Source: Lactiplantibacillus nangangensis (GTDB taxonomy: Bacteria; Bacillota; Bacilli; Lactobacillales; Lactobacillaceae). Taken from it: DNA of 64,000 bases. Where the stretch lies: the NCBI RefSeq assembly GCF_005405065.1, contig NZ_BJDI01000002.1:248001-312000 (forward strand), in the 5' to 3' direction. The position numbers and the translations under genes are program-made. Below, in pieces: positions 20,080 through 24,414 of the stretch. A model generated the notes under the pieces. That model was not told the origin of the DNA and did no database searches. It was given only the letters and a program-made list of their open reading frames with translations. How positions within the stretch are numbered: position 1 is the first letter of the stretch; each line of letters opens with the position of its first letter.

Positions 20080-20168
20080 TTTAATCCGGCCCAGAGAGAC
20101 TGAAAGGTAACCTGTTAACAATAACTTTCATCGACGGTCGTGACAGCTTATGTCCGACCGTCTTTCTT
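20080..20168 (+). promoter_or_regulatory. PyrR-dependent transcription attenuator
   Basis: The leader contains the conserved PyrR-binding loop CCCAGAGAGACTGAAAGG (about 20090-20107). A terminator follows at 20132-20168: stem GACGGTCG / CGACCGTC with a TTTCTTTG tail. This is the standard arrangement in which PyrR with UMP exposes the terminator. It places pyrR and the CPS-like genes under pyrimidine-type control. Confidence 0.78.
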
Positions 20169-20217
20169 TGTAATGGCAAGTAGCTCAAAAAAGGCAACAT
20201 GAATTTGGGAGGCAGTT

Positions 20218-20773: not shown

Positions 20774-21856
20774 ATGGCAGACCGCTACTTGATTCTTGAA
20801 GACGGCAGTGCCTACCTCGGTGAAGGCTTCGGCTCACCAGCGGTTTCTACCGGCGAAATCGTGTTCAATACGAGCATGACTGGTTATCAAGAAATCATTA
20901 CGAATCAAATCTATCATAATCAAATTATTGCCTTTACCCAGCCAACGATTGGTAGTTATGGGATTAATCATGATAGTTATGAATCGATTTTACCAACAGT
21001 TAAAGGCGTGGTGGTACGCGATGTGGCAAGTATTTCGACAAATCGTCAGCGTCGTTGGTCATTGGATCAATATTTAAAACAACAAAACATTCCTGGCATC
21101 AGTCACATTGATACGCGGCATTTAGCCAAACAATTGCGTGCAAGTGGTCCGATGAAAGCTAGTATCGTCGATGTGGCGGATGCACATGCTTTTGATCAAC
21201 TGGGCGCGACTGTGTTGACGAACCAACAAGTGGCCGCGGTCGCAACGCCCAAGCCATTTCCAAATCCGGATACGGGTTTGAATGTGATTGTGATTGATTT
21301 TGGCTTGAAACATGGCATTTTGCGGGAACTGAGTAAGCGTTCCTGCAATGTCACGGTGTTACCGTACACGGCGACGACCGAAGAAATCATTAACTTAGAT
21401 CCGGATGGGGTCGTTTTATCAACTGGACCGGGTAAACCGCAAGATTTGCCGGACAGTGTCTTAACGATGATTCAAAATATTCAAAATCGCGTCCCATTAT
21501 TTGCGATTGGTCTCGGACATGAATTATTTGCCATGGCCAATGGGGCACAGATTATGAAATTATCACCGGAACATCATGGTGCCAACCATCCGATCCGAGA
21601 AGTGATCACTAATCAAATTATTTATGCGTCACAAGGGCAAGGCTATGCTGTGAATCCCGATACAATCGATCGTAATAAGTTGATCACGACGTTTGTGGAC
21701 CTCATTGATGGCACGATTCAAGGTTTGCGTTACCGCGACTTTCCGGCCTTTTCGGTACAATTTTTCCCAGATGGGGCACCCGGTCCAACTGAGACGCGCG
21801 ACATTTTTGATGAATTTGTCGAATCCATGCAACAAGCAAGGGGGCCTGTCTGGTGA
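20774..21856 (+). CDS. carA: CarA-like CPS small subunit with destroyed glutaminase site
   Basis: The 360-residue protein keeps the full CarA architecture: an N-terminal CPSase small-chain domain (LILEDGSAYLGEGFG, FNTSMTGYQEI) and a C-terminal class I amidotransferase domain. The catalytic triad is gone. The nucleophile position in the usual GICLGHQ motif reads AIGLGHE, with Gly246 for Cys. The usual QYHPE reads QFFPD, with Phe331 for His and Asp333 for Glu. The substrate-contacting SQNHG reads SQGQG. It cannot hydrolyse glutamine by the known mechanism. Its stop overlaps the GTG of the CarB-like gene, indicating translational coupling. It may be a structural or sensory pseudoenzyme; confidence in the degeneration is high, in any function low. 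Confidence 0.92.
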   Translation: MADRYLILEDGSAYLGEGFGSPAVSTGEIVFNTSMTGYQEIITNQIYHNQIIAFTQPTIGSYGINHDSYESILPTVKGVVVRDVASISTNRQRRWSLDQYLKQQNIPGISHIDTRHLAKQLRASGPMKASIVDVADAHAFDQLGATVLTNQQVAAVATPKPFPNPDTGLNVIVIDFGLKHGILRELSKRSCNVTVLPYTATTEEIINLDPDGVVLSTGPGKPQDLPDSVLTMIQNIQNRVPLFAIGLGHELFAMANGAQIMKLSPEHHGANHPIREVITNQIIYASQGQGYAVNPDTIDRNKLITTFVDLIDGTIQGLRYRDFPAFSVQFFPDGAPGPTETRDIFDEFVESMQQARGPVW

Positions 21857-24414
21857 ATAATGCAGTCATTTCAAAAGTTTTAATTATCGGTGCGGGCCAT
21901 AACGATATTGGTCGGGAAGGTCAGCATGACGCCGCCGTGACCCAGATTGGCAGTGCCATTCGTAAGTTAGGGATTGCGGTAATTTTAGTGGATAATAATC
22001 CATTCTCGGTGGCAGCGGAAAACAATTTTGCGGATAAAGTCTATATTGAACCATTAACCGTGGGTGCCATCACCAAAATTATTCAGGCGGAACAGCCAGA
22101 TGGACTGATGCCATCTTTAGGTGGGATTCAAGGGGTTAACTTGATTCAGGCGTTGATCCGCAATAATGTGTTGAAGAACAATCACTTACGTTTGCTACAG
22201 TGGGACGCGGAAATGATCGACCTCGTCGTCAATCCAGCACTCATGAGTAATCGCTTGAAAGATTTATCGCAACCAGTCATTGCCTCGCAGGTCGTTGCTA
22301 GTCAAGCTGAAGCCGACCAAGTGGTTCGATCCGTTGGGTTTCCAGTGATTGTTAAGTCAGTTGCGCCCCGAATCGAGGCGAGTCGCCAGCTCTGTGAAGA
22401 TGAGGCAGACCTTGAACGCGCTTTGTCAAAGGGATTCAAGCTATCAGCAACGAAGCAATGTATTGTGGAACAAAGCATTGTCGGCTACAAAGAGATTGAA
22501 TTTGTGGGAATTCGTGATCCTAAGGGAACCGCACTACTCGTCGCTGGTATGGAAAACTTCGATCCAGTCGGCATTCATTCCGCGGATTCAATCGTGTTTG
22601 CGCCAACCCAAACGATTACGGATCAGGAATATCAACAATTTCGTTCCGCAACGTTGACGATTATGCGGGCACTGCATATTGTTGGTGCTTGCCATGTACA
22701 ATTTGCGTTGGATCCAACAACGCAAGCTTACTATGTAATTAAAGTCACACCATATTTTGACCGGGCGATGGCGCTGGCGGCACGGGCGACGGGTTATCCT
22801 TTGGCGCGAATCGTGGCAAATCTAACCGTGGGTGTGAGCTTACCTGAGATCAAGTTACCAACCGCATTTCGTAAGCAAACGGCCTTGATTGAACCGGTTT
22901 TGGATCATATTGTCTGCCGGATTCCAATTTGGCCGTTTAATGTGTTGAAAAAGGTTAGCCATCAATTGGATACGGTCATGGAGTCAACTGGTTCGGTGAT
23001 CGGGATTGGTCGTTCCACCGAAGAGGCCCTTTTAAAAGGGCTGCGGGCAACCGACGAATCACGTTATCACGTGATTGCCAATCAGCCGCAGCGTTACTCA
23101 GAAGGTGAACTGATCCAACGGTTGATCCATCCGCAAGCCGGCCGTATGTTAGTCTTATTGGAAGCCCTCAATCGGGGGTATCAGATCGATGAATTGGCTG
23201 AATTGACTAAAATTGATGCTTTCTATTTTTATAAATTAAGTCATATTATCGCGATCGAAAAGGCCTTGCGTGAGCATCCGTTTGATGTCCATGCGTTAGG
23301 CCGGGCAAAATACTTTGGTTTTACGGATGAAGATGCAGCCGCCGCTTGGCAATCGACACCGGCTGAAGTGAACCATTTTGCGATTGAAAATGAGATTCAG
23401 GCGACGTTTAAAGAGGTCGAGCCAACTGCGGGGGAGTTCACTGAACAGACCAATACTTACTACTCGACTTATGAGTTCGACAACGAAAGTACTCAGTTAC
23501 CGGGACGACGAGCTGTCGTGATTGGGACTGGGGCCAATCGTATTGGGACGAACCATGCGAACGATTATTTAGTTTCGCAATTACTGTTTTATTTAAAAAA
23601 GGCGGATTATCAAACGATTCTAATCAATACTAATCCTAACAGTGTTGCCATGACACCACAGTTGGCAGGTAAGCGGTACATTGAGCCGAAACAAGTTTCA
23701 GATGTGTTGACTGTCTTGGCGATTGAAAAGCCGGAAGTGATCTTTACCACGTATCATGATTACCGGTTAGGACAACAATTGACCAAGTTAGGTTATCAAG
23801 TAGTGCAGATCAATAACAGTTTGCCACGGGAGCAAATTAAGACGAATGATTCGCCGGCTGTGGAAGTTATTACGGATGGCAGTGAAGTGGCTATTTTCGG
23901 CATTAGTGAAATTATTGCGGGGAATAACTTGCGTCCAGATGTTCGTGGGTCGGTAGAAGTCTTTCCAATTCAGGATAAGGCTGAAAATCAAGCCATTGAG
24001 GCACTGAGTACCGAAATTAAGCAACGCGTCTTGACCTTTGGGGTGCCAGGCTTGTATACGGTCCGTTTGACGATTGTGGATGAGGAACTGCACTTGGCGA
24101 CGATTGAACCGATGAGTCTAGCCACGATGGCACTGATCAGCAAAGCCAGTGGCTCAAGCGTGACGCGGCTATTGCTACACGTCAAATTAGGTGAGTCCTT
24201 GGACAAAGTCATGTACGATTATCCCGATTTGACGACGCTTGACACGATTTTTGTGCAGGCGAATACTTTTCCGTATAATCAGTTACAAATTTACGATGAG
24301 GATGAAGTGACCGGTGAACCTGGTCATGCGACCGGGACCGTAATTGCCCATGGTAAAACGCTCAAAGCTGCATTGGCGGCACTGAATGCGGGTAACGAAA
24401 GTACTGATTTTTAA
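21853..24414 (+). CDS. carB: CarB-like CPS large subunit, shortened and catalytically degenerate
   Basis: The 853-residue protein is about 200 residues shorter than typical CarB (about 1060). The N-terminal half keeps the fold and several motifs (GIHSADSI, HVQFAL) but lost the glycine-rich ATP loop (usual GGxGGG replaced by APRIEASRQ), and the metal-ligand segment usually VIEVNPR reads VIKVTPY, with Lys297 and Thr299. The oligomerisation domain (about 410-500) is present. In the C-terminal half (from about 555, VVIGTGANRIG) about 85 residues of the ATP-binding subdomain are missing and the usual IEVNPR reads IEPMSL. The C-terminal MGS-like allosteric domain is absent. The frame is nevertheless open throughout. 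It starts at GTG 21853, overlapping the preceding gene. Confidence 0.9.
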   Translation: MNNAVISKVLIIGAGHNDIGREGQHDAAVTQIGSAIRKLGIAVILVDNNPFSVAAENNFADKVYIEPLTVGAITKIIQAEQPDGLMPSLGGIQGVNLIQALIRNNVLKNNHLRLLQWDAEMIDLVVNPALMSNRLKDLSQPVIASQVVASQAEADQVVRSVGFPVIVKSVAPRIEASRQLCEDEADLERALSKGFKLSATKQCIVEQSIVGYKEIEFVGIRDPKGTALLVAGMENFDPVGIHSADSIVFAPTQTITDQEYQQFRSATLTIMRALHIVGACHVQFALDPTTQAYYVIKVTPYFDRAMALAARATGYPLARIVANLTVGVSLPEIKLPTAFRKQTALIEPVLDHIVCRIPIWPFNVLKKVSHQLDTVMESTGSVIGIGRSTEEALLKGLRATDESRYHVIANQPQRYSEGELIQRLIHPQAGRMLVLLEALNRGYQIDELAELTKIDAFYFYKLSHIIAIEKALREHPFDVHALGRAKYFGFTDEDAAAAWQSTPAEVNHFAIENEIQATFKEVEPTAGEFTEQTNTYYSTYEFDNESTQLPGRRAVVIGTGANRIGTNHANDYLVSQLLFYLKKADYQTILINTNPNSVAMTPQLAGKRYIEPKQVSDVLTVLAIEKPEVIFTTYHDYRLGQQLTKLGYQVVQINNSLPREQIKTNDSPAVEVITDGSEVAIFGISEIIAGNNLRPDVRGSVEVFPIQDKAENQAIEALSTEIKQRVLTFGVPGLYTVRLTIVDEELHLATIEPMSLATMALISKASGSSVTRLLLHVKLGESLDKVMYDYPDLTTLDTIFVQANTFPYNQLQIYDEDEVTGEPGHATGTVIAHGKTLKAALAALNAGNESTDF

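Follow-up and report, generated by a model that had tools for sequence, protein, structure and literature searches.

A conserved, catalytically dead carbamoyl-phosphate synthetase-like pair beside a second pyrR in Lactiplantibacillus, a possible partner of PyrR in pyrimidine-gene control

Four described systems stand closest to the locus reported here: the glutamine-dependent carbamoyl-phosphate synthetase (CPS; CarA/CarB, E. coli structures 1bxr and 1jdb), the PyrR-regulated pyr operon of Bacilli (lspA-rluD-pyrR-pyrP-pyrB-pyrC-carA-carB-...), PyrR2 of L. plantarum and regulatory pseudoenzymes, of which the trypanosome AdoMetDC prozyme is an example. The inorganic-carbon role of the second PyrR of L. 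plantarum, to which a first-pass annotation of the DNA had appealed, is stated in the available part of PMC3582564, which cites a 2006 J Bacteriol paper for it. The gene is expressed, since the accessible portion of PMC7911632 reports a change of −2.10 for lp_1782 (pyrR2) under butanol in one strain; it was unchanged in the other strain, and with pyrR1 at −7.10 and −3.27 the two genes moved together in one strain only. Here we analyse a stretch of 64,000 nucleotides from L. nangangensis (contig NZ_BJDI01000002.1, positions 248,001 to 312,000; the window), in which a second pyrR (pyrR2) is followed by genes for a CPS-like pair (carA2 and carB2). We tentatively propose as the likeliest reading, though at somewhat less than an even chance, that this pair is a conserved non-catalytic CarA-CarB-like pseudoenzyme at the ancestral pyr-operon site, acting as a partner of PyrR in the control of pyrimidine genes.

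The three genes are adjoining open reading frames (ORFs) on the + strand that occupy window positions 20218–24414, where the first-pass annotation had placed them. The first, pyrR2 (20218–20742), encodes a protein of 174 residues, carA2 (20774–21856) a dead CPS glutaminase subunit of 360 residues and carB2 (21853–24414) a shortened, dead large subunit of 853 residues, which begins with GTG and overlaps the end of carA2 by four bases. PyrR2 was confirmed as a member of its sequence family by the PyrR equivalog NF003548 (273 bits, cut-off 218) and CarA2 matches TIGR01368 (371 bits, cut-off 307), while CarB2 falls below the cut-off twice, against TIGR01369 (605 bits, cut-off 1027) and NF003671 (582 bits, cut-off 599). 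Elsewhere in the 2.9 Mb genome, on another contig, lies a complete canonical pyr operon (pyrR, pyrB, pyrC, carA, carB, pyrD, pyrF and pyrE, named by similarity and order). The genome contains a single CarB over the family cut-off and two PyrR over theirs, one in the canonical operon and one at the window locus. Since there are these two copies, the window PyrR2 is presumably the orthologue of L. plantarum PyrR2, and lp_1782 would then be the L. plantarum counterpart of the window gene. The products of pyrR2 and the canonical-operon pyrR1 are 65.7% identical, and CarA2 and CarA1 51.7%. In each of 20 other Lactiplantibacillus genomes compared the order rluD-pyrR2-carA2-carB2 is kept and the CarB2 frame is open at full length.

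In what follows, the catalytic positions of CarA and CarB are those of E. coli CPS. In alignment with canonical CPS, CarA2 shows the substitutions C269G, H353F, Q273E, S47I, N311G and H312Q; in place of the Cys269 and His353 of an active glutamine-dependent enzyme it thus carries Gly (codon 21509–21511, + strand) and Phe. CarB2 carries R169K, E299K, N301T and R303Y and has lost R129 together with the Gly loop, so that none of the four site-1 residues R129, E299, N301 and R303 remains; at 22741–22743 on the + strand a Lys codon stands in for Glu299, which in site 1 of the ATP-grasp coordinates metal. Alignment with CarB1 further showed that most of the second ATP-grasp is missing, that the C-terminal allosteric domain is absent and that little is left of the carbamate site. 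CarB2 gave a good AlphaFold2 model (pLDDT 87.0, pTM 0.89), which superimposes on E. coli CarB (1jdb) with a TM-score of 0.90 over the query, which predicts that the CPS fold is kept. The annotation's view of the CPS pair as dead therefore holds, the catalytic Cys/His of CarA2, the site-1 residues and most of site 2 of CarB2 being gone; the pair can thus neither hydrolyse glutamine nor handle ATP and bicarbonate by the known route.

The loss extends well beyond the window. Our CarA set of 101 rows comprised 80 named loci, 19 loci from relatives and the two own copies; since the 80 were chosen for their similarity to the dead alignment, shares among the rows are not frequencies. The set leaves out 18 Lactiplantibacillus rows that are nearly identical to others. 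Both C269 and H353 are retained in 52/52 canonical rows, whereas all 49 non-canonical rows have Gly at 269 and 48 of them lack H353, locus L151 retaining His. We suggest that the recurrent choice of Gly for the nucleophile may reflect a strained nucleophile elbow. At L130, L139 and L147 (Bacillus sp., Lederbergia lenta and L. galactosidilytica), CarA has Gly for the catalytic Cys and Gln or Glu for the His, but its gene belongs to a pyr operon whose CarB is full-length and retains those site-1 residues that were checked; this is possibly an ammonia-dependent CPS.

Selection on the module was compared among 21 Lactiplantibacillus genomes by the ratio of nonsynonymous to synonymous polymorphism (pN/pS), whose values serve for comparison between genes and not as absolute rates because synonymous sites are near saturation. 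Median pN/pS was 0.042 for CarA2 and 0.092 for CarA1, 0.128 for CarB2 and 0.095 for CarB1, and 0.066 for RluD, which is only partly covered in some loci. These values indicate that all three module genes are under purifying selection and that the dead CarA2 is more constrained than the live CarA1. Loss of catalytic residues combined with strong purifying selection marks the pair, as judged from sequence, as a conserved pseudoenzyme. That the module is a decaying, functionless remnant is barely credible: dead sites, and a module visibly degraded in one relative (G029), are what decay would leave, but the frames are open throughout the genus and pN/pS is well below 1 for all three genes, with CarA2 below its live counterpart, which rules out simple decay without function. 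Because the pair is kept so strictly, it must have a function other than making carbamoyl phosphate.

Constraint has also moved within the proteins. With domain borders that we placed from alignments, the CarA2 N-terminal domain is 97% invariant in Lactiplantibacillus and has a mean identity of 99.1%, against 88.5% in CarA1, and the oligomerisation domain has a mean identity of 90.0% in CarB2 against 80.6% in CarB1; the first ATP-grasp shows the opposite trend (84.0% in CarB2, 93.2% in CarB1). This shift suggests that the CarA2 N-domain and the CarB2 oligomerisation domain may serve as assembly or contact surfaces. Across the whole clade the N-domain of dead-type CarA (CarA*) is not special, its mean identity of 63.7% equalling that of its GATase domain. 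At the nucleotide level, the first ten codons of carA2 (window 20774–20803) have a synonymous diversity of 0.11, against 0.49 overall in the 21 genomes; codons 41–50 are also low, and dips at the start were seen in other genes too.

Among the CarB rows, 37 form a Lactobacillaceae clade, five of them Lactiplantibacillus; the canonical loci L122 and L125, which have no CarB beside CarA, were excluded from the CarB count. E299 is replaced by Lys in 30 rows and Arg in 7, R303 by Tyr in 34 and Phe in 3, and R129 is lost in all 37. N283 is His in 34, R169 is Lys in 21 and Arg in 16, and Q285 is retained in 30, while E215, H243 and D246 are retained throughout. New residues are close to fixed at CarB1 positions 282, 285, 302 and 304 (H, F, Y and D, in 34–35 of 37) and at 179 (R, in 36). 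Dead lineages outside the clade keep more, E299 being retained in L039, L040, L041, L128 and L151. The replacement of the dead site by a nearly fixed new residue set, which is not what random drift would give, favours a changed catalytic activity instead of none. We nonetheless regard this as quite unlikely, for the glutaminase nucleophile and general base, one metal ligand of site 1 and most of site 2 are gone, and within Lactiplantibacillus conservation in CarB2 is lower in the first ATP-grasp than in the oligomerisation domain, the reverse of CarB1. With Lys or Arg in place of the metal-binding Glu and with Glu215 and His243 kept, the remodelled pocket may instead bind a metal-free nucleotide as an input; alternatively, it may be only structural.

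The same residues bear on the reading offered by the first-pass annotation, that the pseudo-CPS could respond to bicarbonate or carbamoyl phosphate and pass the state of inorganic carbon on to PyrR2. Two things speak for it, namely the inorganic-carbon control attributed to L. plantarum PyrR2 in the part of PMC3582564 available to us and the position of carA2-carB2, which follow pyrR2 in what appears to be one operon, so that deletion of pyrR2 might also affect the pair. An inorganic-carbon sensor of the CPS kind would be expected to have the bicarbonate and Mg-ATP residues of CPS intact. Here E299, R303 and R129, from which binding of Mg-ATP or bicarbonate would be expected, are replaced in 37/37 rows and most of the carbamate site is missing, so that a sensing role for the CPS site, whether for bicarbonate or for ATP, is not supported, and the dead pair persists where CPS and aspartate transcarbamoylase (ATCase) are undetectable, as described below. 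We consider carbon sensing very improbable.

The dead pair is widespread. A DNA-level search for the dead-CarA motif GLGHExFA found it in 151/301 Lactobacillaceae genomes and 21/40 genera, the reversed-motif control matching in two genomes; for genomes whose locus was not read, the count says nothing of site or carB. It is also a lower bound, because among 30 motif-negative genomes whose best CarA match was fetched, 14 carry the dead type after rluD (the other 16 have the live type). We surveyed ATCase and CarB in 80 motif-positive genomes outside Lactiplantibacillus, chosen by hand for spread from at least about 135. ATCase was over its cut-off in 60/80 and CarB in 54/80. Among the 26 genomes with no CarB over cut-off, three look fragmented or cut at a contig end; in the other 23 nothing points to a gene that is split or cut. 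Twenty of the 80 lack both enzymes over cut-off, one of them (G352) being a fragmented assembly; the 19 clean genomes come from six genera and all have an open dead-type CarB (CarB*) of 823 to 871 residues, G090 also carrying a canonical CarB fragment. Independent losses are few, because 13 of the 19 belong to one genus. A further six genomes with no CarB over cut-off have ATCase; G329 and G348, two of the six, seem to be cut or split. An earlier set of 44 genomes, some shared with the 80, included 31 with CarB and 36 with ATCase above the respective cut-off.

Four genomes, G039, G047 and G054 (family f4) and G080 (Streptococcus australis), have ATCase and no CarB over cut-off, with a CarB frame of only 583–591 residues; three of the four have a dead-type CarA (L041, L042 and L151). 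Their carbamoyl phosphate may come from another route.

Since the 19 genomes keep dead CarB open where no CPS or ATCase is detectable, control of the real CPS is not the general role of the dead pair. The suggestion made at first pass, that the dead subunits could tune the live enzyme by entering mixed complexes with CarA1/CarB1, gains something from the likeness of CarA2 to CarA1, from the canonical CPS in the same genome and from known cases of dead paralogues that regulate live ones (the prozyme, in the available part of PMC5201418). As a general role it is contradicted by the 26/80 motif-positive genomes that keep the dead pair with no CarB over cut-off, and we give this explanation as little credence as carbon sensing; tuning of live CPS may still operate within Lactiplantibacillus.

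One possible tie between the pair and PyrR is the leader of the module. The 158 bases 5' of pyrR2 (20060–20217) contain a PyrR-box-like element and a terminator, both kept across the genus. The element (20086–20107, + strand), a putative anti-antiterminator, contains the block CCGGCCCAGAGAGACTGAAAGG, with the core AGAGAGACTGAAAGG at 20093–20107, and resembles the known consensus of the PyrR binding loop. The core pattern was found with at most one mismatch in 11/20 same-genus loci, the remaining loci differing at more positions, and the aligned loop block is readable in all 21 leader rows, of which L050 is shortened and L051 and some others are trimmed by the ORF starts used. The intrinsic terminator of the attenuator lies at 20133–20169 on the + strand (hairpin 20133–20162, then a T-rich tract). 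Its stem of 12 pairs is paired in 96.4% of cells across the 21 leaders (19 distinct), two pairs are changed on both sides, and sliding by 1–3 columns lowers pairing to 20–50%. Against shuffles, the count of compensated pairs was not exceptional (reached by 103/500), while terminator cells with two-sided changes (1/500) and the covariation score (3/500) were. Rfam at curated thresholds gave no match anywhere in the window, so the attenuator call rests on consensus and pairing. In the whole genome the strict loop pattern has two matches, in the window leader and upstream of a putative uracil permease (named by eye), and none at the pyrR1 leader; the reversed pattern has one. With a binding-loop consensus and a conserved terminator both found, the leader reads as a PyrR-type attenuator, and the first-pass picture of a second-type PyrR sharing an apparent operon with the dead pair under such control stands.

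Another possible tie is distribution. PyrR is over its cut-off in 80/80 motif-positive genomes (with a stop inside the G196 and G124 matches) and in 28/28 genomes of a first set, one copy being broken. It is a single PyrR in 77 of the 80, and in the Lactobacillaceae clade it lies in the same locus in 28 of the 37 loci read. Five of the six PyrR-less motif-negative genomes are of one genus, in which 8/8 CarA loci are canonical (E up to 1e-20). Under the PyrR-partner proposal, the dead pair would be a protein partner of PyrR in the control of pyrimidine genes, the targets in this genome perhaps being the pyr operon, a uracil permease and pyrR2-carA2-carB2 itself.

Several results weigh against that proposal. 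PyrR is also present in 74/80 motif-negative genomes, and co-occurrence is weak evidence because PyrR is common anyway and the informative loss comes down to one genus. The sixth of the PyrR-less motif-negative genomes, which is 87% complete (G087, locus L213), has a dead-type CarA and a full-length CarB (1056 residues) after rluD, and no PyrR was found in it. In the Limosilactobacillus and Paucilactobacillus loci read, pyrR does not adjoin the dead pair. The PyrR-box pattern with at most one mismatch occurs in 0/11 loci from other Lactobacillaceae genera, a search pattern that misses the pyrR1 leader of L. nangangensis as well, and an attenuator before the module thus does not appear to be general beyond Lactiplantibacillus. 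PyrR2 is less constrained than PyrR1 (median pN/pS 0.117 and 0.044). In CarB, the 14 active-site columns that we marked retain 37% on average, against 46% for 259 other canonical-invariant columns, so the excess loss at the active site is small. The predicted CarA2 model is only fair (pLDDT 76.9, pTM 0.55); its best structural matches are CarA, yet the overall TM is 0.51, a partial superposition in which domain placement is uncertain. Rate covariation was also tried and set aside as proof of a PyrR link. Partial correlations of distances given RluD (26 taxa) were 0.60 for PyrR-CarA* and 0.67 for PyrR-CarB*, and given RluD and LspA (15 taxa) 0.34 and 0.73; canonical pairs in 30 taxa gave 0.55 (PyrR-CarA) and 0.48 (PyrR-CarB) given RluD, and 0.41 and 0.26 given both. 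Canonical PyrR-CarA pairs are thus similar, and only PyrR-CarB* is higher (0.67 vs 0.48).

Some of these results could also mean that the pair has a non-catalytic role unrelated to PyrR, for instance in scaffolding or regulating some other conserved component of the cell, and that PyrR is only a historical neighbour at the old pyr operon. The module starts within 76 bases of rluD in 9/11 loci of the other Lactobacillaceae genera, carA*-carB* stayed where Limosilactobacillus and Paucilactobacillus lost pyrR from the loci read, and CarA2 is far more conserved than PyrR2. Set against this are the presence of PyrR in every motif-positive genome, the finding of only live CarA in the PyrR-less genus and the PyrR-type attenuator that precedes the module in Lactiplantibacillus. 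We regard a PyrR-unrelated role as possible but doubtful. The first-pass idea that the pseudo-CPS acts on PyrR thus survives in part: the distribution fits it, and the commonness of PyrR takes away much of the force of that fit.

Where loci were read, the dead pair is mostly at the ancestral pyr-operon site after lspA-rluD, a site that in Enterococcus, Planococcus, Lysinibacillus and others holds the whole pyr operon. On a quick tree built from the 101 CarA rows, five switches between the live and the dead state are required, and well-supported branches force four of them. The approximately unbiased (AU) test speaks against one common origin for every dead CarA (p 0.00029 for all 49 rows), and a single dead clade without the three Bacillus/Lederbergia rows gave p 0.017. 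CarA death on this tree seems to have happened more than once, the number of origins being uncertain because the tree is quick and several dead rows are long branches. Further dead cases lie at or near the site in Ligilactobacillus salivarius, Streptococcus agalactiae and S. australis, the last with no rluD in view. The original observation is right, and larger than the first-pass annotation had it. A bolder proposal, which we think unlikely, is that a non-catalytic, PyrR-tied role of CPS subunits at the Lactobacillales PyrR locus predates the loss of catalysis; several lineages would then have made pseudoenzymes, the nucleophile becoming Gly each time, that kept this role, perhaps through metal-free nucleotide binding and action on PyrR, even after de novo pyrimidine synthesis was gone.

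Some individual loci deserve record. In S. agalactiae (L149:8127-9722), pyrR-carA*-carB* with a CarB of 532 residues follows lspA-rluD, and a canonical CarB lies elsewhere in the genome. In G029 (L214), also after lspA-rluD, all three module genes are strongly diverged or broken together, and in relative G006 (L071, 157-3203) a further carB is split into two adjoining frames. In the window, a probable intrinsic terminator (24429–24471, + strand; an inverted repeat at 24429–24465, then a T run), identified by eye with no tool score, closes the operon.

Should the PyrR-partner proposal hold, pyrimidine metabolism in a large share of lactic acid bacteria is regulated with the help of a dead metabolic enzyme, and genome annotation may wrongly credit such bacteria with an extra CPS. 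The proposal also offers a direct route back to how the CO2 response of L. plantarum comes about through PyrR2, because carA2-carB2 follow pyrR2 in one apparent operon and were possibly affected in pyrR2 mutants. We recognised no account of a dead CPS pair among the open-licence literature matches listed, and the available parts of PMC5313477, PMC4600210 and PMC9820265 hold nothing relevant to it.

Like glutamine-dependent CPS, the pair has the predicted fold, the two-subunit layout and carA directly 5' of carB; unlike it, the pair has no CarA catalytic Cys/His, a replaced site 1, a mostly deleted second ATP-grasp and no allosteric domain. With the pyr operon of Bacilli the locus shares its chromosomal site and leading gene and, in Lactiplantibacillus, a PyrR-type attenuator, whereas only pyrR and the dead carA-carB are retained at the window site and the working operon lies elsewhere in the genome. 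L. plantarum PyrR2 is likewise a second PyrR, in the same genus, but the accessible parts of PMC3582564 and PMC7911632 mention no dead CPS beside it. The trypanosome AdoMetDC prozyme is, like the pair described here, a dead paralogue that has been kept; the prozyme, however, activates its live paralogue, whereas the dead CPS pair persists where no live paralogue was detected.

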